Shown here one piece after another: positions 6,625-54,245 of a stretch of 56,876 nt of DNA. The position numbers and the translations under genes were made by a program. Each line of letters begins with the position of its first letter. The first letter of the stretch is position 1. Source of the DNA: a virus; IMG/VR virus record IMGVR_UViG_3300025890_002227, positions 1 through 56,876 of that record. The stretch is one strand, 5' to 3'. Under the pieces are notes generated by a model. The model was given only the letters and a program-made list of their open reading frames with translations. It was not told where the DNA came from and searched no databases.

Positions 6625-7286
6625 TAAATCTTAGATAATAATGTATGGTCACCATTGAAATGCCAAAAACCAGTGTGTTGCAGATCTATAGACTTATCTA
6701 CCCATACTTTGAGACCTGCGTGTTGAACACTTCTGCAAAAACTATAGTCTTCTGTTAAATATTGACCTGTTTCATCCACAGTACAGTTAAAAAAGTCGTA
6801 TTGAAAGCTTGTTTCGTCGCCTAATCCAATGTCATCATGATACTTAGTAGCACCTGCTTCGATTAATTTCTCAAATACTTGGCGTTTAATAAGCATAAAT
6901 CCAGTGCCGGCACTATCTGCTTCTACTAAATCGTCTCTACGCTCGCCATTCTTTTTAACATTTACTACGTACTTGGGTGGAATAATCTTTTGCGGATATA
7001 CACCACACGCGACATCAACATCGTGTGTTACTAACTTAACCACATCCTCTGGTGCCCAGCCAATATCTGCGTCTACAAACATTAGATGACTGCCGTTACC
7101 CATAAGAAATTTAGCGGCGCAACTATTACGCCCACGATTAATATTGCTTTCGTTGCTTAAAGTGTCTATTTGGAATGCTAATTTATTCTGCATACCAAAC
7201 ACTGTCCACTTAATATAACTTTGGAAGCAAGACTCGCTTATTTGACCACCATAACAAGGCGTACAAAAGTGTATATTGATATTCAT
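6624..7286 (-). CDS. GT-A type glycosyltransferase-like protein
   Basis: 220 aa. 'FVDADIGWAPEDV' (70-82) contains the DxD metal/nucleotide-sugar motif of GT-A glycosyltransferases, preceded by 'INRGRNSCAAKFL', a helix typical of family-2-like phage enzymes; 'ADSAGTGFMLIKRQVFEKL' and 'EDYSFCRSVQHAGLKVWVD' match the acceptor-side and ED motifs. The substrate is unknown; phage DNA, virion or host surface glycans are possible. Its ATG overlaps the stop of the FAD oxidoreductase gene (7283) by 4 nt, so the two are coupled. Confidence 0.8.
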   Translation of the reverse strand: MNINIHFCTPCYGGQISESCFQSYIKWTVFGMQNKLAFQIDTLSNESNINRGRNSCAAKFLMGNGSHLMFVDADIGWAPEDVVKLVTHDVDVACGVYPQKIIPPKYVVNVKKNGERRDDLVEADSAGTGFMLIKRQVFEKLIEAGATKYHDDIGLGDETSFQYDFFNCTVDETGQYLTEDYSFCRSVQHAGLKVWVDKSIDLQHTGFWHFNGDHTLLSKI

Positions 7287-8341
7287 ATTACATATAATTC
7301 CACATCAGGTGTTCTATTTAGTTTATAGCCATCTATGTTAATTGTCAATGTTTCTCCCAATACCATTTGACGCAATAGTAAACCCACAGCAGGACTATGC
7401 ATAAGCCCGCGCCCTGTAAATCCTGTAGCAAAGTATACATTATCAACATGGTCAATGATAGCATTATTGTCTATAGTGCTACTGTCATAATACCCTGCCC
7501 ATGCTCCGTCCATTTTAGCGGCGTCAAATACATTGGGAAATCTATGGTATAAGTGTGCCCATACATCGTCCCAACTATTATAGTCCGGATCTAAATCAAC
7601 ACCGTCCCAATCACCGTTGCCATCATAACCAACAATGTAACTATTACCCTCTGGGCGTAAGTATATGCCAGTAATAAGATCTGCTACTAGTGGCAGGTTT
7701 GGTATGTGTGGTGCTTGTGTGCTAACATTATACACTGTATGCTTGTGACCTTTGACCGGTATGTTAATGTTAAACGCATTGCCCACAGCATTACTCCAGC
7801 ATCCACTGGCGATTACAATAGCGTCTGCATCGTTATGATTAGCAGTTATGCCATCCTCAAAAACTACTTTAACGCCGTTTATTTGTGCTTCGCTACGAAA
7901 CCAATTGTGTAATGTTACTGGATCTACCCATCCTTCACTATCGTCTGTTGTAATACAACCTCTATATACATCATCTACATTTAACTGTGGAAATAACTTT
8001 AGCAGTTCGTTAGGTTCTAAACTTTGCGTATTAGCACCACAAGCGTTCTGCATCGCAATGCTTTTATCGTGATCGTCTCGTTGATTATCGTTAAACAACA
8101 TGAGATAACCATTGGGTGTAAAGCCTACGTTTGTTTGTGTCTTTATAAAGTCTATTGCGTAGCGGCTTAACTCTACGTTTGTTTGTGTGAAAAACTGATG
8201 TCGCAGTCCACCGCAACTTCTTGCAAAACTACTTTCACTATATTGTTTGTCTCGTTCAAATACTGTTACGCTTGCGTCTTTTGCTAAATGGTATGCTGTG
8301 CTCATACCTATTATGCCGCCGCCTATAACGTGTATGTTCAT
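7283..8341 (-). CDS. FAD-dependent oxidoreductase, D-amino-acid oxidase (DAO) family
   Basis: 352 aa, the full length of DAO/glycine-oxidase/sarcosine-oxidase-type flavoproteins. The N-terminus has the dinucleotide fold GGGIIG (7-12) followed by 'STAYHLAKDASVTVFERD', then 'SFARSCGGLRHQFF', the usual start of the FAD-contacting region. The C-terminus carries 'VYFATGFTGRGLMHSPAVG', the conserved FAD-binding block of the family. These enzymes oxidise secondary or D-amino acids to imines/oxo acids with H2O2; the substrate here cannot be told. It overlaps the cupin gene by 4 nt and the glycosyltransferase by 4 nt. Unusual cargo for a phage. Confidence 0.87.
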   Translation of the reverse strand: MNIHVIGGGIIGMSTAYHLAKDASVTVFERDKQYSESSFARSCGGLRHQFFTQTNVELSRYAIDFIKTQTNVGFTPNGYLMLFNDNQRDDHDKSIAMQNACGANTQSLEPNELLKLFPQLNVDDVYRGCITTDDSEGWVDPVTLHNWFRSEAQINGVKVVFEDGITANHNDADAIVIASGCWSNAVGNAFNINIPVKGHKHTVYNVSTQAPHIPNLPLVADLITGIYLRPEGNSYIVGYDGNGDWDGVDLDPDYNSWDDVWAHLYHRFPNVFDAAKMDGAWAGYYDSSTIDNNAIIDHVDNVYFATGFTGRGLMHSPAVGLLLRQMVLGETLTINIDGYKLNRTPDVELYVI

Positions 8342-17687: not shown

Positions 17688-18557
17688 TTAGTTTATATTT
17701 TTTAGTATGTCTTGTATTAGATTCTGTTGTTCTGTTGTCAAGTTTGTTGGTATGCTTATTTTTAATTCTACTAATAAATCTCCGTAGACGTTACTGTCCA
17801 TAATGGGCATACCTTGTCCTCGTAAAACCATTTTTTGCCCGGGTTGAGCGCCATTAGGTATTTTAACTTTTAGTTCTTTTTCTGTTAATGTTTTAATAAT
17901 TTTCTCTGTGCCAAGCATTGCTTCAAAGCAGGTTAGGTTTATAACTGTAAATAAATTTTGTCCGCTTCTTTCATAGTGCGGATCGTTTATTACATCAATC
18001 GCTATTAGCAAATCACCAGCAGGTGCTCCATTTGCCGCGTTATCTCCTAACCCGCGCATACGCATCGTTTGCCCTGCTATAACACCTTTTGGTATTTGAA
18101 CGTCTAGCGTTTTTGTTTCACTGCCAGCGTTATACTTTACTCTCTTAGTGCAACCTTCATATGCTTCTCGCAATGATACGTTTATTTTTATGTGAATATT
18201 TCTATTACGGGTTTGCTGGTGGCGTTGTCTAAAAGGACTCCTTCCGTTTCCAAACATTTCACCAAATATATCTTCTACATTAAACGGGTATTCAGCATCA
18301 CCTGTAGACCATACGTGTGGGCCATGGCCAAAGTTATGAGCGTGTGGTGCTCCATACTTTCGTAAGTGGTCGTACTCTTGTCGTTTGTCGCTTGATAGCA
18401 CATCGTTTGCTTCGTTTATTTCTTTAAACCTGTCAGCATTACCCCCTTTATCTGGGTGGTTTTGTTGTGCTAACTTACGATATGCTTTCTTAATCGTGGA
18501 GGCATCTGCATCTGCGCTTACGCCAAGTATGTTATAGTAGTCTTTATTTGGATCCAT
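17688..18557 (-). CDS. dnaJ: DnaJ/CbpA-type Hsp40 co-chaperone
   Basis: 289 aa. J-domain (about 6-68) with HPD at 34-36, which stimulates the ATPase of host DnaK; a G/F-type linker ('FGHGPHVWSTGDAEYPFNVE', 'GNGRSPF'); then two beta-sandwich client domains (about 115-275), with no CxxCxGxG zinc repeats, so it is CbpA/type-II-like rather than canonical DnaJ. First gene of the dnaJ-def-clpA operon, driven by a sigma70-like promoter (18568..18596) whose -10 lies only 10 nt before the ATG. Host DnaK is the likely partner. Confidence 0.93.
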   Translation of the reverse strand: MDPNKDYYNILGVSADADASTIKKAYRKLAQQNHPDKGGNADRFKEINEANDVLSSDKRQEYDHLRKYGAPHAHNFGHGPHVWSTGDAEYPFNVEDIFGEMFGNGRSPFRQRHQQTRNRNIHIKINVSLREAYEGCTKRVKYNAGSETKTLDVQIPKGVIAGQTMRMRGLGDNAANGAPAGDLLIAIDVINDPHYERSGQNLFTVINLTCFEAMLGTEKIIKTLTEKELKVKIPNGAQPGQKMVLRGQGMPIMDSNVYGDLLVELKISIPTNLTTEQQNLIQDILKNIN

Positions 18558-21985: not shown

Positions 21986-22357
21986 CTACTTTTCGTTATT
22001 TTGTTTATAGTATTTTTCGTAAGCAACAATAATCGCATTTTGTTGTTGAATTAACTTACGAAGTGCGGCTATATTCATGCTTAGGTTCTCATAACCCTTA
22101 TCTGTTAGACCGAATATAGCACCATCGATGTTGTTCTTTTCAAGTTTGTAAAAAACTTCTTCGTAGTTGTCAACAGTGATAATAGTCCATTCGACGTCTT
22201 TTGCCTCAAATGGTTTAATTGATGGTAGTTCTATATCAATTCTTTCAACAGGTTGCACGACTACAGGTTTGTTACCTTTTTTGGGAGTTAATGAGCATCC
22301 TTGCAATGCAAATGTAGATATGATCAAAGCAATTGTAAATAATTTTATTCCTTTCAT
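21986..22357 (-). CDS. Outer-membrane lipoprotein, candidate o-spanin
   Basis: 123 aa lipoprotein: signal peptide 1-20 and lipobox L-Q-G-C with the lipidated Cys at C21. The mature part is short, with a proline-containing linker then an alpha-helical tail ('LIQQQNAIIVAYEKYYKQ'). It lies 3 nt downstream of a gene whose product has an N-terminal membrane helix and a coiled coil. That order and topology match two-component spanins, which fuse inner and outer membranes at the end of lysis. Inferred from architecture. Confidence 0.72.
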   Translation of the reverse strand: MKGIKLFTIALIISTFALQGCSLTPKKGNKPVVVQPVERIDIELPSIKPFEAKDVEWTIITVDNYEEVFYKLEKNNIDGAIFGLTDKGYENLSMNIAALRKLIQQQNAIIVAYEKYYKQNNEK

Positions 22358-22360
22358 CTT

Positions 22361-22849
22361 TTATTCCTCTTCTGGCTTGTAGTTAGGATTGGCTAGTGAA
22401 GGGCATTCAGAGTTGATTTGACTTGGTTTTACTGCCGCTATTTCTGCTTCACTAAGCGGACTTCCGCTTAATATTTCAAAACACCTCAGTGCATTTTTGG
22501 ATGCATTAGTAATGACCTTACCAATTGGCCCTGGTTTATTTTCAGCAAGTTTGCCGATATCGCGTGTGCCAAAATACTTAGACACTTTGTTAAATTTCTT
22601 TTCAAGTCTGTCATAACTATCTTGGGCGTTATCAAACTTTGTTTCAAGATCGTTTAAAACTTGTGTCATAAGCATACGGTCTTCTTCTGCACGAAGTCTT
22701 GCTTCTTCTGCTAAGGCTAATTGCGTTTCTTTAATAGCCATTTCCGCAATCATACGTGCTTTTTCTTCCTCGTTATTTTGATACCATACGTAACCACCGC
22801 CAGCACCTGCAAGAACGATTAAGAGTAGTATTGAGTTAAATCCAAACAT
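22361..22849 (-). CDS. Inner-membrane coiled-coil protein, candidate i-spanin
   Basis: 162 aa: N-terminal transmembrane helix (3-22), a long charged coiled coil (about 28-95, 'EEKARMIAEMAIKETQLALA', 'LNDLETKFDNAQDSYDRLEK') and a periplasmic tail with 'ALRCFEILSGSPLSEAEIAA', a pattern shared with Rz-type spanins of marine phages. First gene of the spanin pair, after a near-consensus sigma70-like promoter (22877..22905). Confidence 0.74.
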   Translation of the reverse strand: MFGFNSILLLIVLAGAGGGYVWYQNNEEEKARMIAEMAIKETQLALAEEARLRAEEDRMLMTQVLNDLETKFDNAQDSYDRLEKKFNKVSKYFGTRDIGKLAENKPGPIGKVITNASKNALRCFEILSGSPLSEAEIAAVKPSQINSECPSLANPNYKPEEE

Positions 22850-24515: not shown

Positions 24516-25265
24516 TTACACCATAAAAATATTATTAGCGTTTCCTGATTCTATAATTTCCCTGGTGCGATCTGTTTTTAAACCTGTCAATAATAGTGTA
24601 GTTCTAAGCGTATTAGAAGCATTTGCTGTTGCGTGAGGAACATTAGCCCAATCAAATGTATGACAATCACCTGCTTTCCAGTTTGTATACGTATATGTTC
24701 CGTACTGATAAAACTGACCAGGTTCCCAGTCAGTAAGAAATATTGATATTCTGCAGATTTGTTCTGGATTCGATGGCTTCCAATCCCATAGTTTATCAAT
24801 ATGTCTGTTAAACATTTGTCCAGTGTGTTGGACATGACTGCGATATTTTTTCTTTAATCCTTCTGATAAGTCTGTGGATTCAGTTAGTGCAAAGTAATCA
24901 CACATAGATTTAAGCACTGGTAAGTTTGAAAAGTCGTCAAGCATATTAGATAGTTCTAATTTAGGATCGCCGTGGCCTTGAAGAATATCATATTCTTCTT
25001 GCTCAAGCATCGGAGACACATCATCATATTCGCCAAAATACTTTCTAGTTTCCCAACTAATTGCTTTGCTCTCATCGATAATTGTTTGCATTTCTTGTTG
25101 CCAAGATTCTGGATTTGGAAATCTTCCTAAGATCTTAAACCACTCACCTTCTTTATCTTGTCTTTCATTATCGAAATGATATTCGCTGTTTGAAACTGTC
25201 CAATCCCAACTGCTTTTATATGTAGCAGGATCTGTTAGTTTTTTATTCCAATCTGTAGTGTGCAT
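24516..25265 (-). CDS. 2-oxoglutarate/Fe(II)-dependent oxygenase-like
   Basis: 249 aa. Facial-triad candidates are H155-x-D157 ('NRHIDKLWDW') and H211 ('NVPHATANAS'), with R221 positioned to bind the 2-oxoglutarate carboxylate ('TLRTTLLLTG'). Members hydroxylate amino acids, peptides or small molecules. Its ATG overlaps the TAA of tctA by 1 nt (TAATG), so it is translated with the transporter operon tctC-tctA. Substrate not predictable. Confidence 0.8.
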   Translation of the reverse strand: MHTTDWNKKLTDPATYKSSWDWTVSNSEYHFDNERQDKEGEWFKILGRFPNPESWQQEMQTIIDESKAISWETRKYFGEYDDVSPMLEQEEYDILQGHGDPKLELSNMLDDFSNLPVLKSMCDYFALTESTDLSEGLKKKYRSHVQHTGQMFNRHIDKLWDWKPSNPEQICRISIFLTDWEPGQFYQYGTYTYTNWKAGDCHTFDWANVPHATANASNTLRTTLLLTGLKTDRTREIIESGNANNIFMV

Positions 25266-26773
25266 TATGTATAATCAAGTCCTTTGTCTTTTCTTACTAT
25301 ACTATTTACTAAAATACCAATGCTAATTACAATGCAAATAAGAAAAATAGGATGATTGTATATATTAAACAGTTCAAGCCATCTAAAATCTGCCATTGAA
25401 CTGAGACCAGGCTTCCATTGCTTATATCCATATAGTTGCAATGTTCCCCAAAAATACTCATCAATCTTAAATGCTACAACATATGCGACAAGAATAGCCG
25501 GCCTACTTATGTTAAACATTTTACATACAACACCAATCGCGCTTAGAATGGCTAATAGTGCCAAATCTTCCCAACCACCTGTATATTGCATATTAGCGTA
25601 GACAATTACTCCTAGAATAAATGTTGCGTAAATCCAAAAAGGAACTTCTAAGATTTTTAGAATATACTTGTATAAGAATATACTTAATAATGCTACACCC
25701 ACTGTTCCAAATATATAACCAAATGCTAAACTGTTTGTAAACTGTAGATCGTCTAGTAGACTAGGCGTGCCAATTTCCATACCAAAATACATACAAATTG
25801 CCATAACCATAGCCGCAAATGGTGCGGCTGGTATTCCAAATAAACACGCAGGTATCATACTAGATACTTTTTGTGCGTTATTTGCTCCTTCACAGCCTAG
25901 CAATCCAACAGGGTTGCCTTCACCAAACGGAACTTCTTGATCATCTTCTTTGTGTGCCGCTTTTGTGGCGCCGTATGCTAGAAAGTCGCCTACTGCTCCT
26001 CCTACACCTGGTAATAATCCAGTAACAAACCCGATTAAGCCACCGCGTATCATATCTTTCCAATTTTTTCTAACGTCACCAAAGCCTTGCTTTAAGCCTT
26101 TCCAGTAATTACCTTCAAGTGGTGGCGCCGCTGATTTTAATTGCCTTCTAAATCCGTCTAATAATTCTGGAACTCCAAACAATCCTGAAAGCAACACAAC
26201 CATTCCAATTCCATTTTGTAAGTATTCCCAACCGAAAGTTAATCTTGGATTACTTACGACATCTTCTCCTACCATACCCACTGCTAGTCCAAATATAATA
26301 GCACAAGTGCTTAGGAAGATACTCTTGCTGGCTACAAAGCCTACGCAGGCTAATGCCATTGTCATAAATCCTAAAAACTCCGGGCGTCCAAATAATACTA
26401 TAATTTTTCCATAGTATGGAAGTAAAAAGAAAGTTAATGCCGCAAATACGACACCATTAAATGTTGAATCAGCAATAGCAATTCCCATTGCTCTCGCCGC
26501 CTGGCCCTTCTTTGCCATTGGATAGCCGTCAATAACACAGGCCGCTGTTGTACTTGCGCCAGGTATACCAGTAAGAATACTAGTATAACTATCAGCACTG
26601 GCGCAACTTGCTACAATAGCAGTTAAAAAGACCAATCCTAGATAAGGATCAGCCATAAAGTATGCGCCCATACTAAAGACAGTTATCAAGGCGGTAGTAA
26701 CACCTGCTATAGGAATAATTCCTACTAACATTCCATAAGCGGTGCCAACTAACGCCCAGATAACATAATCCAT
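25265..26773 (-). CDS. tctA: TctA-type permease of a tripartite tricarboxylate transporter
   Basis: 502 aa with about 12 hydrophobic segments and both TctA signatures: 'SILTGIPGASTTAACVIDG' followed by 'MAKKGQAARAMGIAIADS' (65-105) in the first half, and 'GFVTGLLPGVGGAVGDFLAY' plus 'EGANNAQKVSSMIPACLFGI' (248-314) in the second. This is the large membrane subunit of TTT transporters, which use a periplasmic binding protein (TctC, next gene) and a small 4-TM partner TctB. No TctB is present: only 4 nt separate tctC and tctA. It may use host TctB, or function without it. Overlaps the 2OG oxygenase gene. Confidence 0.93.
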   Translation of the reverse strand: MDYVIWALVGTAYGMLVGIIPIAGVTTALITVFSMGAYFMADPYLGLVFLTAIVASCASADSYTSILTGIPGASTTAACVIDGYPMAKKGQAARAMGIAIADSTFNGVVFAALTFFLLPYYGKIIVLFGRPEFLGFMTMALACVGFVASKSIFLSTCAIIFGLAVGMVGEDVVSNPRLTFGWEYLQNGIGMVVLLSGLFGVPELLDGFRRQLKSAAPPLEGNYWKGLKQGFGDVRKNWKDMIRGGLIGFVTGLLPGVGGAVGDFLAYGATKAAHKEDDQEVPFGEGNPVGLLGCEGANNAQKVSSMIPACLFGIPAAPFAAMVMAICMYFGMEIGTPSLLDDLQFTNSLAFGYIFGTVGVALLSIFLYKYILKILEVPFWIYATFILGVIVYANMQYTGGWEDLALLAILSAIGVVCKMFNISRPAILVAYVVAFKIDEYFWGTLQLYGYKQWKPGLSSMADFRWLELFNIYNHPIFLICIVISIGILVNSIVRKDKGLDYT

Positions 26774-26777
26774 AATT

Positions 26778-27830
26778 TTAGTCTAAAAGTTCAGGCTTAT
26801 AAACTGATGGGAAACCATATGCTTCTTGGTTCCATCTAACTGCGTCCCTAAGGGCTTTCTCTGTAATTAAAGATTTTAGTGCCGCCAATAATGATGGACC
26901 ATCTTGAATCCACGGATATACTCCCGTCTTTGCGTAAATTTCTGCTGATGCAACCGGATCATTAATCATTGCAGTTACAGCCGCTTTAACTTTTGCCGCA
27001 TTTGGATTACCTTTGTTCATCCAAAGTGATTTTTGTATTGCATCACGCCAGTTACGAGTAAGTTTATATGCGTTATATAAATCGCCTGAAGGTCTTTCGC
27101 CCCATAGTGACTCATAAACATCTTCAAACTGTGTGTTAGGAAAGTTTGGATCTGCAATTTGTACATTGTTTTCTAGATCTAGAATACCGTGTGTAAACCA
27201 AAGTTCGTTGCCAGCGATGCCTTCGTAAAAGCGTTTCCAAGCCGCTGGTGATTCACGGGCAACATCAAATTCTCCGTTTTTAAATCCTAGGCGCTTTTCA
27301 CCGCCTGATACACCGTTAACCCAAATAACACGCTCTCTCCAACATGCCAAGTATTCATCGACAGTGTTGTCGCCTTGTGGTCCACATAGTAACATTGCAA
27401 CTGCCGCCGCATCTGGTTCAAAACCTGAGCCGCCCGCAATTGTCCAAGTTCCTTCTTTTTCTTGGGCACCTGCGTGTTTACCTAATACGATGTCGTTGTT
27501 CATTGAACCAATTAGTTCATAGTCAAAGTAGTTGTAATCAACCTTGTCTAGCAAGTATGATACACCATTACCACCGTGAGCAACCATAATTGTTTTGTCA
27601 TCAAAACGTAGGCTGTTGTGGAATTTATTAAATCCAGGAATATCTCTTGCACCTGGAATATGGCGTACTACTACTGGTTCACCAATGAACTTTTCTAGGT
27701 TTTTTGCAATAATTTCGCTCCATACCGAAGTACCCTTACCAGGTGCTTGGGGAACAATCAAAGTATAATCAGCTAATGCTGGTAGTGCGATGCCCACCGA
27801 AAGCATAAGTGAAAGAATCAAACGTTTCAT
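26778..27830 (-). CDS. tctC: TctC-type periplasmic substrate-binding protein
   Basis: 350 aa. Signal peptide 1-20 (MKRLILSLMLSVGIALPALA) then 'DYTLIVPQAPGKGTSVWSEI' and 'GEPVVVRHIPGARDIPGFNK', the usual TctC/Bug family opening with the P-G-K-G ligand loop. The mature protein fits a two-lobed Venus-flytrap. It captures carboxylates such as tricarboxylates or aromatic acids for TctA; the ligand is unknown here. A 128-nt leader with three tandem 13-bp repeats (27871..27909) and a GATAAATA box (27965..27972) precede the AGGAGA ribosome site. Confidence 0.92.
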   Translation of the reverse strand: MKRLILSLMLSVGIALPALADYTLIVPQAPGKGTSVWSEIIAKNLEKFIGEPVVVRHIPGARDIPGFNKFHNSLRFDDKTIMVAHGGNGVSYLLDKVDYNYFDYELIGSMNNDIVLGKHAGAQEKEGTWTIAGGSGFEPDAAAVAMLLCGPQGDNTVDEYLACWRERVIWVNGVSGGEKRLGFKNGEFDVARESPAAWKRFYEGIAGNELWFTHGILDLENNVQIADPNFPNTQFEDVYESLWGERPSGDLYNAYKLTRNWRDAIQKSLWMNKGNPNAAKVKAAVTAMINDPVASAEIYAKTGVYPWIQDGPSLLAALKSLITEKALRDAVRWNQEAYGFPSVYKPELLD

Positions 27831-40305: not shown

Positions 40306-40842
40306 TTAAACTCCTGTGTGCCCGAAGCCTCCCTGTCTATTTGTCTTTTGGCCTGGTGGGGTATCTATTTGCTGTAAACTCATATGAGAATCTTCATGAA
40401 ATTCTAACTGGGCAATTCTATCGCCCTGTTCTATTCTAAACTTTTCTCCGCTGACATTAATTAGCATAATAAAAGTTTCGTGATAGTAATCGCTGTCAAC
40501 AACACCTTCGCAATTTGCTACTGTAATTCCATTCTTTAATGCCAATCCACTGCGTGGATGTATGCGAATACTATAACCCTGTGGTATATCAAATATTAAA
40601 CCAGTTGGAATAAGGCATCTATGGTTTGGCTCGAGAATTATATTGTTTACAAATTTTGGTGAGCCTTTCCAAGCATGATGGGCGTCTAAGTCCACTGGTC
40701 TATTGTATTTGTCGAAACTTTTTACATATTGTTTGTGGAAACAAGCGTGAACGTCATAGCATGCCGCTTGGTCTGTTGCCCTAACTGGTTCGTGTGCATC
40801 GCTTGATATCTTAAAATAATCAACTATTAAATGTGCGCTCAT
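40306..40842 (-). CDS. dut: dUTPase
   Basis: 178 aa with all five trimeric-dUTPase motifs: 'QAACYDVHA' (1), 'HPRSGLALKNG' (2), 'TVANCEGVVDSDY' (3), 'GDRIAQLEF' (4) and 'RQGGFGHTG' (5, glycine-rich C-terminal arm). Hydrolyses dUTP to dUMP, preventing uracil in phage DNA and supplying dTMP. It carries an insertion of about 25 residues between motifs 1 and 2. ATGA junction with the metallopeptidase gene. Confidence 0.95.
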   Translation of the reverse strand: MSAHLIVDYFKISSDAHEPVRATDQAACYDVHACFHKQYVKSFDKYNRPVDLDAHHAWKGSPKFVNNIILEPNHRCLIPTGLIFDIPQGYSIRIHPRSGLALKNGITVANCEGVVDSDYYHETFIMLINVSGEKFRIEQGDRIAQLEFHEDSHMSLQQIDTPPGQKTNRQGGFGHTGV

Positions 40843-41423
40843 AACTTACAATCCGTCCTTTCTTCGTTTAACTGCTTACTATATATATTCCTCCACTTCG
40901 CATAATATTGTTTATCTGAATACGGCATAGGCAGATAAGGAAACATCTGCTGTACTAATTTTTCTTCTAGTCTAGTTGCTTCATATTCAGCCCAAACAAC
41001 ACATCTTGTGCTAAGTAATCCATGCATTTCTTGAACATAGTGTATTGATTCATGGACTACTGTGCCTACTCCGTATGCAGTTTTTAGATCAAGTGTATCT
41101 CTAAAATAGAACGAGCCCCATGAATAAAATGCTTCGGTGTCCACTGATGCTTCACATCCTGAAAACAATTCATTTTGGTTAACTGCATCTGTAAACACGC
41201 GACAAAATAATTTTCGGTATTGCGAATCATTCAATATGTGTACTTTTATTTTAAGATCTCGTATTTTAGGATATTGAGAATATACATTATTAACTTCTAA
41301 TGTCTTTATTACTTCAAGTATAATATTATGAACTTCTGCTCGTGTGGATTCTAATTCACTGTCGCTCAAAGCGAATGAGTTAGATGTCACTAGTAGTAGC
41401 AGAATAAGAATATACTTCTTCAT
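40839..41423 (-). CDS. Secreted HExxH metallopeptidase-like protein
   Basis: 194 aa. Signal peptide 1-18 (cleaved after SFA-L). 'TVVHESIHYVQEMHG' holds HESIH at 124-128, the zinc-binding HExxH, with E146 or E148 ('VVWAEYEATR') as possible third ligand in the gluzincin manner. Four cysteines (C74, C90, C141, C192) could form disulfides, fitting a periplasmic or secreted location. Strong promoter (41430..41458) with the regulatory box; -10 is 6 nt from the ATG. Confidence 0.74.
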   Translation of the reverse strand: MKKYILILLLLVTSNSFALSDSELESTRAEVHNIILEVIKTLEVNNVYSQYPKIRDLKIKVHILNDSQYRKLFCRVFTDAVNQNELFSGCEASVDTEAFYSWGSFYFRDTLDLKTAYGVGTVVHESIHYVQEMHGLLSTRCVVWAEYEATRLEEKLVQQMFPYLPMPYSDKQYYAKWRNIYSKQLNEERTDCKL

Positions 41424-43095: not shown

Positions 43096-44820
43096 TTATT
43101 CATACACTCCTGTCTGCGGGAATTTTATGTATTTATCCTTTTCGCCCACTTTATGATATGTTTGCGGGGCGTATTCTTTAAATATCACATAATACTTATC
43201 GTTATTTAGTGGTACGAAGTCAAAGGTTATACTCTTAAACTGTGCCACATAGTCCTTTACTTGGGTTAATCTTCCAGTAGTACCAACATTTGTACTATCA
43301 CCAAATATTGCTAATTCATCTGATCTGTCAATATAGTAATTTAGATTAAATGTACTTGTTACACCGTCACCCGTTATTGTCTGCGTTACATCCATAAACT
43401 TCATATCATCGCTATCAAATGTAGTTGTGTCTGTATTCCACGTAGTATAAACTCGAGTAGAATACGTATCAGCGTCTATATTATATGACAATGACAAATC
43501 TTTGTCCCACTCATATCTGTCAACCTGAAATAAGAAATTGTTCGGATTAAAGTTAGAACGCTTAATTAAAAATTTAATTCTTTCTGCTTCTCCTGGTTTA
43601 ACATATGCTAATGGAACTACAGTTTGATACTGCAAAATAGATCCGTCTTTTTGTTCAGTAGACATCCAACTTGGAAGAGATTTTGCTTCACTTACTACTT
43701 CGCCAATTCCAGCAAGTAATCTATCACGCATGTTTTTAAAACTGTTAGGGTATACATCATATGCTGGATCCCATTCTGTCATATCCACAGAATAATCTGC
43801 AATACCAGGCCCGTCGTCTAAACTTGCTCTAATACGCCCACTTGATGCATATATAGGTGCAAAATCAAAACTAGTTCCACTTAAATTAATTAAAGTTTCT
43901 TCTGATGCAGATAATTCCTGTACTTCATAATAAATTACCTCATATTCTTCTTTTCCATCAACGTATGAACGGGCACTCTTTAGTTCCCCAAATCGTAAAA
44001 CTTTAGTATAATGGTACTCTTCCATCTGAGTCAGATAATCTTTTAAGTACTTTGGATTAAGGCCTGATTTAACTAATATTCTTATATCACGCTGTAATCC
44101 AAAACGCTCGTCGTTTTTTCTATACAAAGCATCTTGATCAAAAATGTTGAAGTCAGAGGTGAAATCCTGCCACTCTGCTCTATCTTTAAAACTTGGTAAC
44201 GCTATACAATACACATCTTGCCATGGTTTTGCCTTTAACGCAGAAACAGTAACGCTGTAATTTTGCGTATCACTAATACCAAAGCCGCCGAAGATATTTG
44301 CTTCTCCAATCGCACCCGAACCACCACCTCCAGTAAATGTAATTGTAGGTTGGTGTGTGAATCCTTCTCCTTCATTTGTGATAGTCACTGAACTTACAGC
44401 ATCACCAGTTAAAGTGCATGTTGCAGTTGCCTGTATACCACCACCTCCGGTTATTGTAACGTCAGGAGCAGAAGTATATCCTGAACCACCTTCGATCATT
44501 GATATTGAAGAAAGTGGGCCTATAGCACTGTATGCTTCTGCTGTAAAAGTAAAACTACTATCCCAAGTAGTAACAGTTTCTAGTTTACTATCGGTTACTG
44601 TAAATGTAGTAGTTCCTTTATCAAATGATGTTGTATTACGAAAAGTAGTTCTTCCAACGATTGCACCGTCTTGTTGTAATTTTAAACCTTGCGGTAATTC
44701 CCCTGCATCAATAGAACGCTTTAGTCTAATGAATAAGTTGTCGCCTCCAGGAGAAACTGCATCAATTTTTAATTTGCTAGGCTTTCCTGATATAATTGTT
44801 CCTAAATTTATACTACTCAT
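43096..44820 (-). CDS. Large tail/adhesion structural protein
   Basis: 574 aa from ATG 44820, an ATGA junction with the upstream gene (a TTG at 44826 is the alternative). N-terminal Ig-like region, then two 'GSGYTSAPDVTITGGGG'-type repeats, common in phage tail proteins, and an acidic C-terminal half with tandem Tyr-rich strands ('VYTTWNTDTTTFDSDDMKFM'). Probably part of the baseplate or a neck/tail fibre complex with 44817..45902. Confidence 0.78.
   Translation of the reverse strand: MSSINLGTIISGKPSKLKIDAVSPGGDNLFIRLKRSIDAGELPQGLKLQQDGAIVGRTTFRNTTSFDKGTTTFTVTDSKLETVTTWDSSFTFTAEAYSAIGPLSSISMIEGGSGYTSAPDVTITGGGGIQATATCTLTGDAVSSVTITNEGEGFTHQPTITFTGGGGSGAIGEANIFGGFGISDTQNYSVTVSALKAKPWQDVYCIALPSFKDRAEWQDFTSDFNIFDQDALYRKNDERFGLQRDIRILVKSGLNPKYLKDYLTQMEEYHYTKVLRFGELKSARSYVDGKEEYEVIYYEVQELSASEETLINLSGTSFDFAPIYASSGRIRASLDDGPGIADYSVDMTEWDPAYDVYPNSFKNMRDRLLAGIGEVVSEAKSLPSWMSTEQKDGSILQYQTVVPLAYVKPGEAERIKFLIKRSNFNPNNFLFQVDRYEWDKDLSLSYNIDADTYSTRVYTTWNTDTTTFDSDDMKFMDVTQTITGDGVTSTFNLNYYIDRSDELAIFGDSTNVGTTGRLTQVKDYVAQFKSITFDFVPLNNDKYYVIFKEYAPQTYHKVGEKDKYIKFPQTGVYE
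43130..43137 (-). promoter_or_regulatory. Late promoter box GATAAATA
   Basis: Minus-strand GATAAATA inside the 3' end of 43096..44820, 36 nt before ATG 43093; probable internal promoter of the beta-helix fibre gene. Confidence 0.45.
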
Positions 44821-45902
44821 GACCAAATTACCTCAGTTTTGGAATCACCCTCGATACTCAAAGTATATTCTATATAAGGTCCATAAATTGTAATTGCTTT
44901 AGGAGGACTATAATCATTGTCAGTAAAGGTGTTCAATGGACGAACTGAAAATGTATAATTTATTTCAGTTGCAGTTTGGGATGGTATAGTTCCGTATATA
45001 AGACATGATCCTTTGCTGTCAGTTGCATCTGCATCATATGCCCCATCAAATGTAAGCATCGAAGGAAAATTACCAGTTTTTTCAAATGAAATGGAAGGTA
45101 AATCTTCCATTACTTCTCCTTCTAACTTTTCAATATAATAATTATCATGTTTATAGGATCCAATAGTATTAGCAAGAGAAGACATCCACGGTCTAGCAAA
45201 CTTATATACATCTGCTAACCACATATTATTGGTAGAGTCACATGTAATATTACTTCCGAGATCATCTTCTTGTGTATCTGCGGAACCGCCTATCAATGCA
45301 TGTACTATAATGTTAAACTGCCGTGTTATGGTGTATACTCCGTCAGTTACCGTAACAGTAAACACATAATCAGTAGTTTTTGAAATTTTTGTAATGCGTC
45401 CTGTTAATGCACCGGTTGAACTATTTAGAACTAATCCAGGGGGCAGTAATCCGTCTGTTACTGTGTATGTTAAGTCATCCTCATCAGAGTCAGTAGCCGA
45501 AACACTAGTGTTTATTTCTTCACCATCGTGAGTATCTAATAGTTTACCTTCTGCGGTCGCCCAGACTGGCGAGTCTGGACCTGCAACTGTTAAAGTAAAA
45601 GTTCTGTCCGCTATTAAACTTTCTGCATCTGTTATTCTAATAACAAATTTACTAGTAATATTTTCACTAACTTCGTATGGAATACCTTTTACCTTACTGC
45701 GTTGTGTAGGAATTCCGTCAATTAATCCTGTAGCTGCCATAGCAATGCCACCAGGAAGTTTTCCGGCTAACAATGAAAATGTTAAGCCAGTGTTGTTACT
45801 TACTTCTTCAGGATCTCTGCCTACTAATTGTAGATTATAAAACTCTTGTTCTTGAATTGTGCCTAGGCTGCCTGCATCAGTTACCCAATATGGTGCGGCC
45901 AT
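44817..45902 (-). CDS. Putative Ig-domain (cadherin-like) tail protein
   Basis: 361 aa. At least two He-PIG-type Ig domains: 'GLTFSLLAGKLPGGIAMAAT' and 'YTVTDGLLPPGLVLNSSTGA' followed by 'LTGRITKISKTTDYVFTVTV', the classic L-P-x-G-L-x-L-x-x-x-T-G-x-L-x-G pattern. Such domains in tail proteins bind glycans or stabilise the tail. It precedes 43096..44820 with a 4-nt overlap. Confidence 0.8.
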   Translation of the reverse strand: MAAPYWVTDAGSLGTIQEQEFYNLQLVGRDPEEVSNNTGLTFSLLAGKLPGGIAMAATGLIDGIPTQRSKVKGIPYEVSENITSKFVIRITDAESLIADRTFTLTVAGPDSPVWATAEGKLLDTHDGEEINTSVSATDSDEDDLTYTVTDGLLPPGLVLNSSTGALTGRITKISKTTDYVFTVTVTDGVYTITRQFNIIVHALIGGSADTQEDDLGSNITCDSTNNMWLADVYKFARPWMSSLANTIGSYKHDNYYIEKLEGEVMEDLPSISFEKTGNFPSMLTFDGAYDADATDSKGSCLIYGTIPSQTATEINYTFSVRPLNTFTDNDYSPPKAITIYGPYIEYTLSIEGDSKTEVIWS

Positions 45903-45910
45903 TAATTATT

Positions 45911-46165
45911 TTACCAAGTTGCTATTGCTACTCGGCGCCAAATTGCTGTTGAACCGTCATACGCCGCTGTGCAAATATAAAAATAACTTGCGTCGTATGC
46001 AATTTTGCCTGCAAAATCTCCTGCGGCGCCTGTTGCAGCTACTGGTGCTGAATGAGTCATATATAACTCATCAAAGTTATCATTTACTTTGTCAAATGCT
46101 GTACGTAGTGGGTCACCTGTACCATCATTCGCTGTTGACCCGATGTTAATTGCTTGTTTAGCCAT
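45911..46165 (-). CDS. Short anchor-domain fibre protein (84 aa)
   Basis: 84 aa: almost only the anchor ('INIGSTANDGTGDPLRTAFD' and 'KVNDNFDELYMT') plus a short tip ('YFYICTAAYDGSTAIWRRVA'). The anchor is shared with 46216..47769 and more distantly with 41498..43093. It could cap or occupy a fibre-attachment site, or be a fibre that lost its shaft. A CTAAATA-type weak box lies at about 46203. Confidence 0.78.
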   Translation of the reverse strand: MAKQAINIGSTANDGTGDPLRTAFDKVNDNFDELYMTHSAPVAATGAAGDFAGKIAYDASYFYICTAAYDGSTAIWRRVAIATW

Positions 46166-46215: not shown

Positions 46216-47769
46216 TTAGTAAGTTCGCCAAGTGGAGCCAGTATACATAACGCCGAATGATTCGCCGTCTGTTATTTTGGCTAAGTTACTTGCGGAGCCG
46301 TTAATAGTGTTTCCGTTACGATCCACAGTAAACGTGTTTGAAGAGAACGCACCACCTGCGTCCATAAAATATATTGCTTCGCCAGTTGCTGGTGATCCAG
46401 GTAGTGTTGCTATAACAGTGTTACCGCTAGTGTCTACGCCGTATCGCCCTGTTGATGAAGCATTGAAATCAGCTGATCTAATTAAAAATCCTTGCTCACC
46501 ACTTCCTAATGCTCTAACTCCAATTCTAGCACCATTGGGAGGAGGAGAAGTAAATGTGATGCTTGAACCTGATATACTATATGCTGTGGTTGGTTCTTGC
46601 ACAATACCGTTGACTGTAACAATTGCAGTTATAGTTGTTGGTGCTACAGTACTCATAGTAAAGATTGTATCAACACCATTTGCACCAGTAATAGTTTCTT
46701 GCCCAACAGCAATAATAGGGTCTAATGATGCTGAAACTATCCAATTGCCAGCACCAGTACTGTATCTTAAAGAAGAATTGTTTGCAACACCAGTTGTATC
46801 AACATTGTTTAGATCGCCAATATTAGTTGCGGCAATTCTTGTGTTTACTCTAGCATCAGTGTAATACATTGTACCACTTGATACTGTTGCCGCTGGATCT
46901 TCTGTTACATCAGCGGTTGATTTAGTTGCCAATCTTGTATCAAAGTCTGTATTATGTCTTGTTGTAGTATAATAAAGATTACTTACTCCTTCTGAAACGC
47001 CATCAGTATCGCCTGTAAATATCGACGCAGTTCCCATATCAACATATGTAGCACCATCGTTTGTAAACTGCCATTTGTCTGTTGTTTCATTCCACAGCAA
47101 TTGAACATTTGTACTAGTTCCACGCTCAACTTCAATACCACTGTCTAAACTTGGTGTTCCTGCTTCGTCTGCATTTAGCACTATAATGTTATCGCCAATT
47201 GTAACTGTGTTTGATTCGACTGTAACAGTTGCGCCTTGTACTATTAGGTTACCGCCAATGGTAATATCACCAGCCAATGCATTAGAGATTCGAGCATCTG
47301 CTCGAGCATCTGTAAAATATAAGTTAGTACCTTCGGCTAAGTTAGTTGTTGTCTTAGTTGCAAGTCTTGTGTCAAATGCTGTGTTTGCTCTAGCATCGGT
47401 GTAGTATAAGTTTCCACCTTCGCCAATGTCATCAGTTGTAACACTAGTATTGGCCCACGCCGCACCGTTCCATCGTAACAATTGTCCTGTAGGAGTCGCG
47501 CCTGCGATAGTAACATCAGTTAAATCATTTAGTGCGCTCGCCGCAACAGTGGAAGATGCTTCCCAGTTGCCTGTGCTAGAGTTATATACAAGTGTGTTTC
47601 CATTAGCCACACCGGTTGTGTCAACGTTTCCAAGTTGGCTAAGGTCAGTCTCGTATAGTGCTTCAACTGCCTCATTTAACTTTCCGAACGAATCTCTAAG
47701 AGTATCACCTGTGCCATCGTTAGCAAGAACGCCTCTATTTACGATATATTGTGAAGGGGTATGTGCCAT
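46216..47769 (-). CDS. Long tail-fibre protein with NLYYTDAR repeats
   Basis: 517 aa. N-terminal anchor 'RGVLANDGTGDTLRDSFGKL', then repeated 'NLYYTDARANTAFDTRLATK'-type units (LYYTDAR, LYFTDAR, LYYTTTR, MYYTDAR), a shaft signature of phage fibres, and a C-terminal beta-rich head ending 'GVMYTGSTWRTY'. Probably the trimeric receptor-binding fibre. Late promoter at 47790..47797. Confidence 0.86.
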   Translation of the reverse strand: MAHTPSQYIVNRGVLANDGTGDTLRDSFGKLNEAVEALYETDLSQLGNVDTTGVANGNTLVYNSSTGNWEASSTVAASALNDLTDVTIAGATPTGQLLRWNGAAWANTSVTTDDIGEGGNLYYTDARANTAFDTRLATKTTTNLAEGTNLYFTDARADARISNALAGDITIGGNLIVQGATVTVESNTVTIGDNIIVLNADEAGTPSLDSGIEVERGTSTNVQLLWNETTDKWQFTNDGATYVDMGTASIFTGDTDGVSEGVSNLYYTTTRHNTDFDTRLATKSTADVTEDPAATVSSGTMYYTDARVNTRIAATNIGDLNNVDTTGVANNSSLRYSTGAGNWIVSASLDPIIAVGQETITGANGVDTIFTMSTVAPTTITAIVTVNGIVQEPTTAYSISGSSITFTSPPPNGARIGVRALGSGEQGFLIRSADFNASSTGRYGVDTSGNTVIATLPGSPATGEAIYFMDAGGAFSSNTFTVDRNGNTINGSASNLAKITDGESFGVMYTGSTWRTY

Positions 47770-47810: not shown

Positions 47811-48377
47811 CTACTCTGTATTGATGTTGTCCATTAACCACATGTAAATTGGGGTTCTAAAGTTAAGAGTAAAAACACAACCGCCAACGTTAATCATTTT
47901 TTGTTCCATAGAACTCTTCCAGTGGCAATGCCCGTTAACAATTGAGATTTCATGTAACATATTAACTTTTCTAAGATATGCGATAAATCCATCACTTTTA
48001 AACTCTGATTCAGGGCATATATTTGCGGTTAATTCACTAATATAGGGTAATATATATTCCAAAGAGACACGGCCGAGTTCTATATCCTTAATAAAGAAGC
48101 CATTATCATAAATTTCTTCATTACGTTTTGATTCCAATAATATTTCTAAAGTATGATGCTCATCAATATCATCATTTATTTCTATCATATACTCTTTAAC
48201 TGAAACTTTTCTTCCTTCTTGCCAATCAAAGGTTACGTTACTGGGATTATCCAACTCAGTGTTTTCTGATAATGTGTTGCCGTCAAATATCGTAGTGCAT
48301 CTAGGCAACGGAGCCTTGCCATCTAATTCATCTACTAGATGATAGTAGATTGTTAACGGTACTATCTCTTTGGACAT
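47811..48377 (-). CDS. Beta-rich phage protein, paralogue family A (distant copy)
   Basis: 188 aa. Matches 5321..5914 along its length: 'VPLTIYYHLVDELDGKAPLP', 'LDNPSN', 'WQEGRKVSVKEYMIEIND', the 'CPESEFKSDGFIAYLRK' block and C-terminal 'FRTPIYMWLMDNI'. Copies 42 kb apart mean either an old duplication or two functional components of the same structure. Its stop is adjacent to the tail-fibre operon; its start overlaps the HtrA stop by 1 nt. Confidence 0.74.
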   Translation of the reverse strand: MSKEIVPLTIYYHLVDELDGKAPLPRCTTIFDGNTLSENTELDNPSNVTFDWQEGRKVSVKEYMIEINDDIDEHHTLEILLESKRNEEIYDNGFFIKDIELGRVSLEYILPYISELTANICPESEFKSDGFIAYLRKVNMLHEISIVNGHCHWKSSMEQKMINVGGCVFTLNFRTPIYMWLMDNINTE

Positions 48378-49537
48378 TACTTTTCTGGTATTCGTTCGTC
48401 TAATGTTACCAAAATATTTAGATACTCTTCACCTCTAACAACGCCCAATGTAACTTTATTTCCAGGCATTTGTAATGCAAACCAGTCAAAGAAGTCACTG
48501 GAGTTTCTAATAGCAATCTTGTCTACTCTTGATATAATATCATCTACGTGTAAGTCTGCGAGTTCTGCAGGTGACCCAGGCTCGATTTCATTAACAATAA
48601 TACCACGTGGTAAATTTAAATCGCTGTTTTGTTGCAAGCCGACACCTAGTCTTGGTCTACGCACTCTGTCATATTGTAGCAATTCACTAATAACATGAGA
48701 AGTTACTTCACTAGTAACAGCAAAGTTAAGACCAGTCTCGTTAGGAGTATCGCCTCCCGCACCAGGACCAATTATCATTACGTTAACACCAACAACTTTG
48801 CCGCGTAAATTAAATAATGGACCTCCGCTATTTCCTGGATTTACTGCTGTATCTGTTTGTACTAGAGACTGCCAAATATTATTAAGTTTTCTGTTTAGAT
48901 AACTTGTTACACCTTGCGTTACAGTCCACATTAAACCATGAGGATGTCCAATAGCAAATACAGGCTCTCCAAGACGTGGTAAAGACGGAGCAAAAGTTAA
49001 TGGCACTATATTCATAATATCAGAGTCAGGGTTTATAATTTCTAATATTGCAATGTCAGTATCTTTGTCTGCTGAAATAAGGTGGGCCTTGTATGCATGC
49101 CAACTCTTATTTTTTAATCTAACTAAGTACTCATCTTGAACCCCGCCATCGATTACATGATGGTTAGTAACAATAAGATTTTTTCCAACAAAAAATCCAG
49201 TGCCATGTCCTGCTTGCTGGAGTTCTTGTTCCACTGGAATAAAGTTTGACTCTTCTAAAAAATCATTTAATGGATTATTATTTTCTTCTTGATCTTCAGG
49301 AACCGGGACTATTTTGGGCACCGGACCGTCTACTTCTACATAATTCATAGTTGTAATAGCCACAACAGAATTTATAACTCTAGGAATAATATTCTCTATT
49401 CCAAGACTTGTTGTATTGTATGTAATTGGTTCAGCAGAATCCTGGGCCCAGGACCACTGCTTGGTATTTGACCCCAATGCAGGGGTGATTAATAATGCGG
49501 CTAATGCTATAGCAGTTGCCTGTTTTTTTAGAGTCAT
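48377..49537 (-). CDS. HtrA/DegP-like periplasmic serine protease with PDZ domain
   Basis: 386 aa. Signal peptide 1-22, then a linker (65-105) and trypsin-fold domain with the triad H128 ('TNHHVID'), D161 ('DTDIAIL') and S237 in GNSGGP. One C-terminal PDZ-like domain (about 290-385, 'PRLGVGLQ', 'EIEPGSPAELADLHVDDIIS'). Phage copies of HtrA are rare; it could degrade damaged or competing envelope proteins during infection, or process a virion or pilin component. Late box at 49555..49562 with an AAAGGAG ribosome site. Confidence 0.94.
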   Translation of the reverse strand: MTLKKQATAIALAALLITPALGSNTKQWSWAQDSAEPITYNTTSLGIENIIPRVINSVVAITTMNYVEVDGPVPKIVPVPEDQEENNNPLNDFLEESNFIPVEQELQQAGHGTGFFVGKNLIVTNHHVIDGGVQDEYLVRLKNKSWHAYKAHLISADKDTDIAILEIINPDSDIMNIVPLTFAPSLPRLGEPVFAIGHPHGLMWTVTQGVTSYLNRKLNNIWQSLVQTDTAVNPGNSGGPLFNLRGKVVGVNVMIIGPGAGGDTPNETGLNFAVTSEVTSHVISELLQYDRVRRPRLGVGLQQNSDLNLPRGIIVNEIEPGSPAELADLHVDDIISRVDKIAIRNSSDFFDWFALQMPGNKVTLGVVRGEEYLNILVTLDERIPEK

Positions 49538-49554
49538 AAAATTACTCCTTTAAT

Positions 49555-49562
49555 TATTTATT
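49555..49562 (-). promoter_or_regulatory. Late promoter-like box AATAAATA
   Basis: Minus-strand AATAAATA 17 nt upstream of ATG 49537, between divergent genes; one mismatch from consensus. Confidence 0.5.
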
Positions 49563-49596
49563 TAACCAGCGAGTTGTTACAAATAATAATAGCACA

Positions 49597-49642
49597 CTAT
49601 TAAATAAATAGATTGCATGCTATTAAATAAATAGATTGCATG
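49597..49642 (+). repeat. Tandem 23-bp duplication spanning a start codon
   Basis: Two identical 23-bp units (49597-49619 and 49620-49642), each with a TAAATAAATAG box and ending in ATG. The second ATG (49640) starts the gene; the first opens a 5-codon frame that stops within the next unit. Confidence 0.85.
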
Positions 49643-50401
49643 CCAAAACAATTCAAAGATAGTATTAAAGTTGACAAAAATAAGTTTAAGTACACTGTTT
49701 ATTATTACCCTGGCAGTGGTGGGAACATATTTGCGTGGCTATTAGGACTTGCTCATGAGCCTAGGTTAATTAACACTGCTCTTGAATGTTTTCCGATGGT
49801 CTTACAGTCAGACACTCGTACATTAATAGACGATGCAGGAAATATGTTATCCGGTTGGTGTTTATATGAAAATGTTCAATCTTTGAATCCATATGCAAAG
49901 GCAGTATTTTTAAATGTTAATTTTAAAGATTCACAAATAACTGATTTAAACGGGACCATGGGCTCATTAAATGGGTTAAATTCGCTGATGAAATTAACTG
50001 AGCTTTCCAGTAAGCATTCTAAAAATATATTCTTAACAATGTCGCCTAAATCAAGAATGAGAGCGTGTTATGAAAAGGGCTGTCGACCATGGAGATCAAC
50101 TGATCACCGCACATGCAGATCAATTATAAATGAAATGTTAGCACACAATATGTATCAAAATACAATATTAACCGAGTTTAAAGGTATAGATTATTTTTTA
50201 GACTACACTGATTTATATACAGGCGCATATCTAAAAAAGATAGAACAAATTACAAAACAACCAGCAACTGATTCATCAATCGAATCTATGGAAACCTTGG
50301 TTAACAGATACATTCAACTAACTCCGCCCAAGTTACTAACAAAAATTAAAGCGGAACTAAATATATACAATAGCAAAGACTACAATAGTATCAATCTTTA
50401 A
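49640..50401 (+). CDS. Sulfotransferase-like P-loop protein
   Basis: 253 aa. 'YTVYYYPGSGGNIFAWLLGL' has a P-loop-like G-S-G-G as in PAPS-binding loops of this phage group, and the Arg/His-rich 'KGCRPWRSTDHRTCRSI' segment could form the second phosphate-binding block. Weaker than the other family members here. First gene of a plus-strand pair. The start is the second of two duplicated ATGs (49597..49642). Confidence 0.6.
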   Translation: MPKQFKDSIKVDKNKFKYTVYYYPGSGGNIFAWLLGLAHEPRLINTALECFPMVLQSDTRTLIDDAGNMLSGWCLYENVQSLNPYAKAVFLNVNFKDSQITDLNGTMGSLNGLNSLMKLTELSSKHSKNIFLTMSPKSRMRACYEKGCRPWRSTDHRTCRSIINEMLAHNMYQNTILTEFKGIDYFLDYTDLYTGAYLKKIEQITKQPATDSSIESMETLVNRYIQLTPPKLLTKIKAELNIYNSKDYNSINL

Positions 50402-53258: not shown

Positions 53259-53266
53259 TATTTATA
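53259..53266 (-). promoter_or_regulatory. T4-type late promoter box TATAAATA
   Basis: Exact TATAAATA on the minus strand 16 nt before ATG 53242, overlapping the pilin stop codon. Separates the pilin from the downstream membrane-protein group. Confidence 0.65.
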
Positions 53267-54245
53267 GATGCTTCATTGTTTCGTAAGCACCTTCTTTTAG
53301 CGTACCTGTATCCCAATCCAAGTAACTGCCCATTCCGGTGTCACCCACAACTACCGAAAAGTCCTTCCATGACCCATCACTGTCTTTATAGTTTATATTG
53401 ACTGTTTGGTCTTTTAGTTTTTGCCCAGGCTCAGATGTAATAGTAATGTTAAAGTCATCATCGCTAACTCCAATTTCTTTCAAAGTAGAAGTAAAAAAGT
53501 CTCCTACCCATTTGTCATTACCGCCTGCCATATATCCATAGTTCTTATTTGTGCTAACAACTCTACATTTCCCGCCATCACCAGCACGTTTAAGATACAT
53601 TTGGTTCCATCCCGTTCCTGTGCTATTAGTGCCATTTTGAATAGTATTACTTCCCATATCATTCATTTGGCTTAATAATACATCTTTTGGCGACTGTCCT
53701 TCCTTTGGTTTGCTCAAATAATTGGAACGAATCGATCCTTCTTGTGCTAGTTTTGATGTGGATCCTTGCTTACAAAAACTTTCACCTTTACTAGGATCAT
53801 TTATATTAGACTTAGACGCTGTTGTTGATACTCCAGATGAGCATTTTGGCAAAAAGGGTTTAATTTCTTCTGTTGCCGTACATTGCCATCTGCTACAATC
53901 AGACGGTGTAAATGTAATAGTTTGACCATGCAACTCTGATCTTGCATTTTTACCGAACTCTACAATCACTAGCCCATCTTGAACTTTAACATTATCAGTA
54001 TATTTGCCTGAAATTTCAAAAGGCTGTGGCACTGCCGCGTCAATATTGTCTGTGGGCAATCGTTGTTCTATTTGGCAAATGAGAGACACGCTAGAACGTG
54101 CTGGCCCGGTAATTATGTATCCTTCGGATATCTGAGAACGTAATACATATTTTCCATAAACAGGCAATGCGATTGAGGCAAGTATACCAACAATCGTGAC
54201 TACGATCATTAATTCAATGAGGGTAAAGCCTTGTTGATTTTTCAT
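53262..54245 (-). CDS. Type IV pilin with C-terminal extension domain
   Basis: 327 aa. Prepilin leader MKNQQG with cleavage before F7 and the E at mature position 5 (E11), then the long hydrophobic helix '[20 protein letters not shown]'. Residues 30-145 complete a PilA-type fold, with a C-terminal disulfide-like pair (C121 and C133 region, '[18 protein letters not shown]'). About 180 further residues with extra cysteines (C158, C229 region) form an added domain absent from ordinary major pilins (about 140-160 aa). It needs host PilD and assembly machinery. Roles such as pilus mimicry or receptor blocking are inference. Confidence 0.92.

Follow-up and report, generated by a model that had tools for sequence, protein, structure and literature searches.

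The HtrA-type gene and its product

The window analysed here is the entire 56,876-base IMG/VR virus record IMGVR_UViG_3300025890_002227. The gene in question is an open reading frame on its minus strand (48377–49537) with an ATG start, which encodes a 386-residue serine protease of the HtrA/Do type. A Shine–Dalgarno sequence, AGGAG, precedes it (49545–49549). The protein combines a predicted Sec-type signal peptide (residues 1–22; 49472–49537), a trypsin-like domain (Trypsin_2, residues 112–251; 48785–49204; Pfam E = 1e-29), and a single PDZ domain (PDZ_2, residues 295–379; 48401–48655; Pfam E = 1.9e-11), all on the minus strand. The codons of the catalytic residues H127 (49157–49159), D161 (49055–49057), and S237 (48827–48829, in the motif GNSGG) lie on the same strand; the three columns are invariant in every alignment built, and the triad is retained in all phage orthologues examined. 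The signal is predicted from the N-terminal sequence, MTLKKQATAIALAALLITPALGS, its hydropathy, and a helix at residues 2–21 of the structural model. A-x-A sites are clearer in the phage orthologues (GSAYA in phage L011 and FQALA in phage L012).

The AlphaFold model has a predicted local distance difference test (pLDDT) score of 81. Compared with the Protein Data Bank, it matches 8kic with a template modelling (TM) score of 0.86 and the protease–PDZ1 portion of DegQ (3stj) with a TM score of 0.83, and DegP, DegS, and AlgW are also matched. Among solved chains, DegP-like and DegQ proteases of bacteria come closest. Among the NCBIfam models the protein is nearest to the Do family (TIGR02037, E = 3.2e-65), with 220.8 bits against a curated cut-off of 416.2. 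It is further from the DegS model (152.9 bits against 422.95). The triad in a GNSGG trypsin-like domain, at least one C-terminal PDZ domain, and the HtrA fold place the protein in the HtrA/Do (S1C-like) family; the export expected of that family is represented by the predicted signal peptide only. With one PDZ domain and a score below the cut-off it falls outside the DegP/DegQ subfamily (TIGR02037), and with a score below the cut-off and a signal peptide that looks cleavable rather than a membrane anchor it falls outside DegS. Profile phrog_11383 (PHROGs v4) matches residues 35–384 (E = 4.3e-61). This profile is annotated as of unknown function in PHROGs v4, and an HtrA label would fit it. Defence-system profiles (RT-Protease and Avs1b) match through the shared trypsin domain only.

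We regard the assignment to the HtrA type as virtually certain, and export, as predicted from the signal peptide, as very likely. The original prediction, made from the letters of the window, had described a periplasmic HtrA-type protease with a complete triad, a signal peptide, and a PDZ domain. Its reading frame is exact and its numbering of S237 is right; the family is borne out by domains and fold, and the periplasmic type agrees with these and with the predicted signal peptides.

Inheritance and position in related phages

Relatives were found by scanning viral contigs with the HtrA alignment, with a tail/baseplate-type structural protein (43096–44826, minus strand) that served as a marker for the tail module, and with a pilin-like protein described below. 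A scan of the viral contigs with the single HtrA protein gave no matches, while the scan with the alignment succeeded and returned orthologues with 47–48% identity over nearly the full length. A quick maximum-likelihood tree of HtrAs, with support from the Shimodaira–Hasegawa-like approximate likelihood ratio test (SH-aLRT), separates clade A (the window, L010, L011, and L120) and clade B (L012, L125, and L126), with a support of 100 each. The two clades are joined at 85 and most viral HtrAs at 82, both weak values. The HtrAs of this tail lineage are closer to each other than to any cellular homologue found.

A close cellular source did not emerge: the best match was about 32% in a narrow pattern scan of genomes, and 41–42% over 270 residues among 398 sampled genomes, which were of Pseudomonadota only. 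Recent capture from a host was considered and rejected, the best cellular value standing against 46–48% near full length within clade A. Between the two closest orthologues the ratio of nonsynonymous to synonymous substitution (dN/dS) is 0.36 at a dS of 0.34, which argues that the gene is maintained under purifying selection. HtrA diverges faster than most of the module, with 48.5% identity to L121 as compared to 81% for the tail protein at 43096 and 94% for the clamp loader.

The position of the gene is conserved. Six related phage types have HtrA as the direct neighbour of the distal gp9/10-like gene: 3300008954_002004, 3300007770_000580, the group 3300003618/3300004110/3300025676/3300000239, the group 3300022821/3300022851/3300023296/3300023235, 3300025889_000088, and 3300023049_000110. 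Its usual neighbour across phages is a homologue of one of two window genes on the minus strand, a short gp9/10-like tail or baseplate protein (45911–46165; Pfam T4_gp9_10_N, 1.3e-8) or a tail-fibre-like protein with a gp9/10-like N-terminus (46216–47769). HtrA is divergent from the tail genes in all six types, with 48–132 bases between them. The window differs, as HtrA is turned onto the tail strand and a gene for a 188-residue protein (47811–48377, minus strand) lies between HtrA and the fibre gene. With the window included, seven distinct phage types have HtrA next to the tail module, with phage genes on both flanks.

Each HtrA phage contig carries one Trypsin_2 protein. Eight contigs from more distant relatives that share the tail gene, possibly fragments, showed none; nor was HtrA found on L002 and L003, records that may also be fragments, so this was not counted as loss. 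Contamination with host DNA was rejected for the window because phage genes flank HtrA and the synteny is conserved. Phage flanks and inheritance in a phage lineage together identify HtrA as a phage gene. The same gene is found at the same place in several related viruses; it is therefore phage-owned and a lasting viral tool, not a stray host gene.

That the protease is phage-encoded had been claimed from the window alone, and conserved phage synteny, phage flanks, and phage clades now support it. The adjoining gene had been called a tail-fibre-related paralogue. The protein at 47811–48377 is indeed a paralogue, of 5321–5914 (41% identity), but a relation to tail fibres finds no support, since it has no Pfam or PHROG match; the true gp9/10-like tail paralogues near HtrA are 45911–46165 and 46216–47769. 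A pilin had been placed about 4 kb off, and a type IV pilin-like protein with an extra conserved C-terminal domain (53262–54245, minus strand) does lie 3.7 kb away. The supposed link between HtrA and the pilin is weakened because no pilin turned up on the HtrA-bearing contigs of clade B and of two further clades (C and D, below). Within the tail lineage, N_methyl pilins are confined, among phages with HtrA, to clade A.

Pilin homologues (53262–54245; L011:8362–9366; L120:1201–2145; L010:11764–12462) share the long conserved C-terminal domain. L010 keeps this domain and lacks most of the pilin body, which suggests that the domain is the functional part of the phage pilin. A gene for a 253-residue protein (49640–50401, plus strand) is a neighbour of HtrA in three of the four clade A phages.

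Upstream signals

A late-promoter-like sequence, TAAATAAATA (49555–49564, minus strand), is located 23–27 nucleotides upstream of the HtrA start, a position shared by the four phages of clade A. TAAATA is found upstream of HtrA in seven of seven phages, at −27/−23 in clade A (4/4) and at −10/−11 in clade B. In the window, TAAATA[CA] precedes 11 of the 32 genes that have an intergenic upstream region, as compared to a mean of 2.6 and a maximum of 7 in shuffled sequences. The fibre gene and HtrA are among the carriers. The late promoter of T4 is TATAAATA. This full sequence shows no enrichment across the window as a whole (6 occurrences against 10.8 expected); enrichment concerns the shorter motif, in upstream regions only. 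The likeness of TAAATA to the T4 late promoter makes late expression of HtrA probable. Sigma-70-like sites occur upstream of other window genes, and there are possibly two promoter classes. Two tandem 23-bp copies of CTATTAAATAAATAGATTGCATG (49597–49642), which contain TAAATA, lie directly upstream of the gene at 49640.

Further viral clades and their small exported partners

Exported HtrAs with a single PDZ domain also occur in two other viral clades, C (nine rows) and D (37 rows), each with an SH-aLRT support of 100. Three clade D contigs carry a Gp23 capsid gene. In nearly all loci inspected in both clades, the gene directly upstream of HtrA encodes a small exported protein; no HtrA neighbour of this type was found in clades A and B. 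The clade D partner (L061:5167–5724, with counterparts in about 44 viral loci, L018–L089) is an exported protein with a four-cysteine helical domain and a disordered acidic tail, with no Pfam match and no significant match in a fold search. Its tail ends in [LI][NS]F in 21 of 33 distinct sequences and in QG in the other 12 (LNF, INF, or LSF at the carboxy terminus, or FQG or LQG). The clade C partner (L017:5364–5699, L044:4138–4473, and loci in L031, L032, L020, L021, L040, and L043) is a different exported protein of about 111 residues with two conserved cysteines, and has no Pfam match.

DegS reads the YxF C-terminus of outer-membrane proteins, and DegS peptide complexes are among the structural matches to the HtrA model. 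The resemblance of the [LI]-x-F carboxy terminus to YxF raises the suggestion, by analogy, that the clade D partner could be the phage's own activator or adaptor of HtrA, a ligand of its PDZ domain. In the QG group the last codons of the partner (CAAGGA) double as the likely ribosome-binding site of HtrA, and this nucleotide constraint is a competing reason for the conservation of the QG ends.

The genome that carries the gene

The window proteins include gp9/10-like and other tail proteins, PhoH, a clamp loader, a ClpA-like protein, and DnaJ. By the clamp loader, the nearest cultured phages are PA5oct, MIJ3, and Paride (58.9%), which are jumbo phages of Pseudomonas with genomes near 286 kb; none of them is among the matches to the window HtrA. 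The tail module recurs together with HtrA on a related contig of 322,647 bases, and a T4-type Gp23 capsid gene was found both there and in a 230-kb relative. Given the size of the longer contig, the Gp23 capsid genes, and the clamp-loader kinship, the window probably represents part of a jumbo or near-jumbo myovirus genome of the T4 superfamily.

Several window genes are of host type: a Glu/Leu/Phe/Val dehydrogenase-like protein (47–1162), an FAD-dependent oxidoreductase (7283–8341), the ClpA-like ATPase (14925–17234), and the DnaJ-like protein (17688–18557). A TctA-family transporter gene (25265–26773; Pfam 4e-86) adjoins the gene of an exported 350-residue protein (26778–27830), which may be the binding protein of the transporter; the similarity to TctC types is not significant (E = 0.37 and 0.91). 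A candidate spanin pair (21986–22357 and 22361–22849) comprises a small lipoprotein (LQGCS) and, next to it, a helical protein with a membrane anchor. The predicted exports of the phage besides HtrA are the pilin, a 194-residue protein (40839–41423), the 350-residue protein, and the spanin-like pair. The 194-residue protein shows 25–34% identity within clade A and is among the fastest-changing genes of the tail-side cluster. It is a possible candidate for an HtrA substrate or partner.

Proposed role

Family, triad, PDZ domain, export signal, single copy, phage inheritance, and fixed place follow from the sequence analysis. The role that we infer is the removal of non-native or tagged envelope proteins by a periplasmic protease that the phage owns and makes late, and we give this reading a probability of about 0.5. 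HtrA would be read late, together with the tail genes, as the promoter motif suggests, and the signal peptide would carry it across the inner membrane. Exported HtrAs with one PDZ domain are expected to form trimers and to cleave envelope proteins that are unfolded or bear a C-terminal tag, and by this analogy the phage enzyme probably trimerises. In the periplasm of the infected cell, it would cut non-native or PDZ-tagged envelope proteins of both host and phage. The benefit would be an envelope that is kept working and cleared of unwanted proteins while a very large phage builds virions and exports proteins. The phage appears to export several proteins of its own, which is a reason to own an enzyme of this type. 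DegP is allosterically activated by hydrophobic C-termini (PMC7529758).

Several points weigh against this reading. Of the 398 sampled Pseudomonadota genomes, 379 have an HtrA of their own, so that a pure quality-control role needs a reason for the phage copy. The TAAATA signal is a motif match in AT-rich, related sequences, and in clade B it stands only 10–11 nucleotides before the assumed start codons. The fixed tail-side place and the fast divergence could indicate a narrower target.

One such target was named in the original prediction, the host receptor. A late periplasmic HtrA would remove precursors of outer-membrane receptors or pilus parts, with the effect of superinfection exclusion or of progeny freed from receptor-bearing debris. 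The fixation beside the distal tail genes, the place of HtrA among the faster-diverging genes of the module, and the late-type motif speak for this reading, which we consider possible but not likely. Also in its favour, infection by PA5oct-type phages, the nearest cultured ones by clamp loader, depends on lipopolysaccharide together with another receptor, for example type IV pili (PMC6950013), and other phages exclude superinfection by blocking type IV pili (PMC8764522). The known phage exclusion proteins on these pili, however, bind and do not proteolyse, folded outer-membrane receptors are generally known to be poor HtrA substrates, and HtrAs mostly act on unfolded or tagged proteins. Nor is the pilin a convincing partner. 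Processing or quality control of the phage pilin, or of host pilins, by HtrA would fit the distance of 3.7 kb and the presence of HtrA within the examined stretch on all six contigs of the pilin scan, but no pilin could be detected on HtrA-bearing contigs of clades B, C, and D, some of them as long as 230 kb and 177 kb, and prepilins are processed by PilD-type aspartic proteases, as is well established. We consider this role highly improbable.

HtrA might instead set the time of lysis by degrading a periplasmic antiholin, holin domain, or spanin. Host DegP is reported to degrade the T4 antiholin RI (Tran et al. 2007, as cited in PMC8385771), and the window has a late-type motif upstream of HtrA, the spanin-like pair (21986–22849), and small exported proteins. 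Loss of degP left lysis inhibition unchanged (PMC8385771), no antiholin was identified beside HtrA, and the gene lies outside any lysis cassette; this function is unlikely. A DegS-like action, in which HtrA would cleave the host anti-sigma factor RseA and so elicit the sigma-E response, draws on the one PDZ domain, as in DegS and AlgW, and on the structural match to both. The apparently cleavable signal peptide, the long loop between the first strands, as in DegP and DegQ, and the higher score of the Do-family model (the DegS model reaching 152.9 bits against a cut-off of about 423) make it very improbable. Least credible is a virion protease for entry, a tail part encoded with the tail genes. 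The placement suits it, but an exported protein is beyond the reach of cytoplasmic virion assembly, HtrA is usually on the strand opposite to the tail genes, and no Trypsin_2 protein is seen on contigs from the more distant relatives that share the tail gene.

A wider proposal would unite the clades, and we offer it as speculation. Large phages of several lineages would own a periplasmic proteolysis system built on a single-PDZ HtrA, in one clade with a secreted adaptor; in the window clade the system would be tied to the tail and would clear receptors and other envelope proteins late. The part assigned to the adaptor is just as conjectural: its disordered tail, with a hydrophobic C-terminus like that of outer-membrane proteins, might activate HtrA or deliver it to chosen envelope proteins.

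Comparison with known systems

Control of host proteins by phages is known mainly from the cytoplasm. A periplasmic protease kept by phages beside their tail genes would, if the proposed role is true, give them a means of remodelling the envelope in the course of infection. The open-access literature, covered mostly at the level of titles and abstracts, gave no described case of a phage-encoded HtrA or periplasmic protease. Of two jumbo-phage overviews, PMC7824862 has no match for 'trypsin' and PMC13282480 none for 'HtrA'. Among 50,697 phage records, no bona fide cultured-phage match with protease and PDZ domains was recognised, and most HtrA matches in that collection seem to come from host DNA or from mixed assemblies without annotation. 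INPHARED entries CAKLQF020000007, AGRM01000002, OR846588, and others apparently contain pieces of host chromosome, for example with degQ beside nadB, and inflate counts of phage HtrAs.

The peptidases of Rhizobium and Sinorhizobium phages (16-3 p036 and RHph_X2_25) are likewise trypsin-like proteases in phage genomes, but the match spans the protease domain only, and the X2_25 protein, at about 215 residues, is too short for an added PDZ domain. The profile phrog_11383 is longer than the window protein (462 positions), with an extra N-terminal part. PfsE of phage Pf, Tip, and Aqs1 also change the host envelope in infected cells, as HtrA is proposed to do; they bind PilC or PilB and are not proteases (PMC8764522). 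With DegS and AlgW, the single-PDZ regulatory HtrAs, the window protein shares one protease and one PDZ domain, but it has no clear membrane anchor, has a long first loop, and scores far below the DegS cut-off. It resembles DegQ, DegP, and MucD in export, the His-Asp-Ser triad, the trypsin-like domain, PDZ1, and the long first loop. It differs from them in having one PDZ domain, so that PDZ2-dependent cages are not expected, in its separate phage clade, in its score below the TIGR02037 cut-off, and in an identity of at most 41–42% over 270 residues to the HtrAs of the 398 Pseudomonadota genomes. The HtrA family is old; what is new is an exported branch, inherited by phages and tied to the tail module of large phages, which has the Do-type architecture minus PDZ2 and forms a phage clade of its own.
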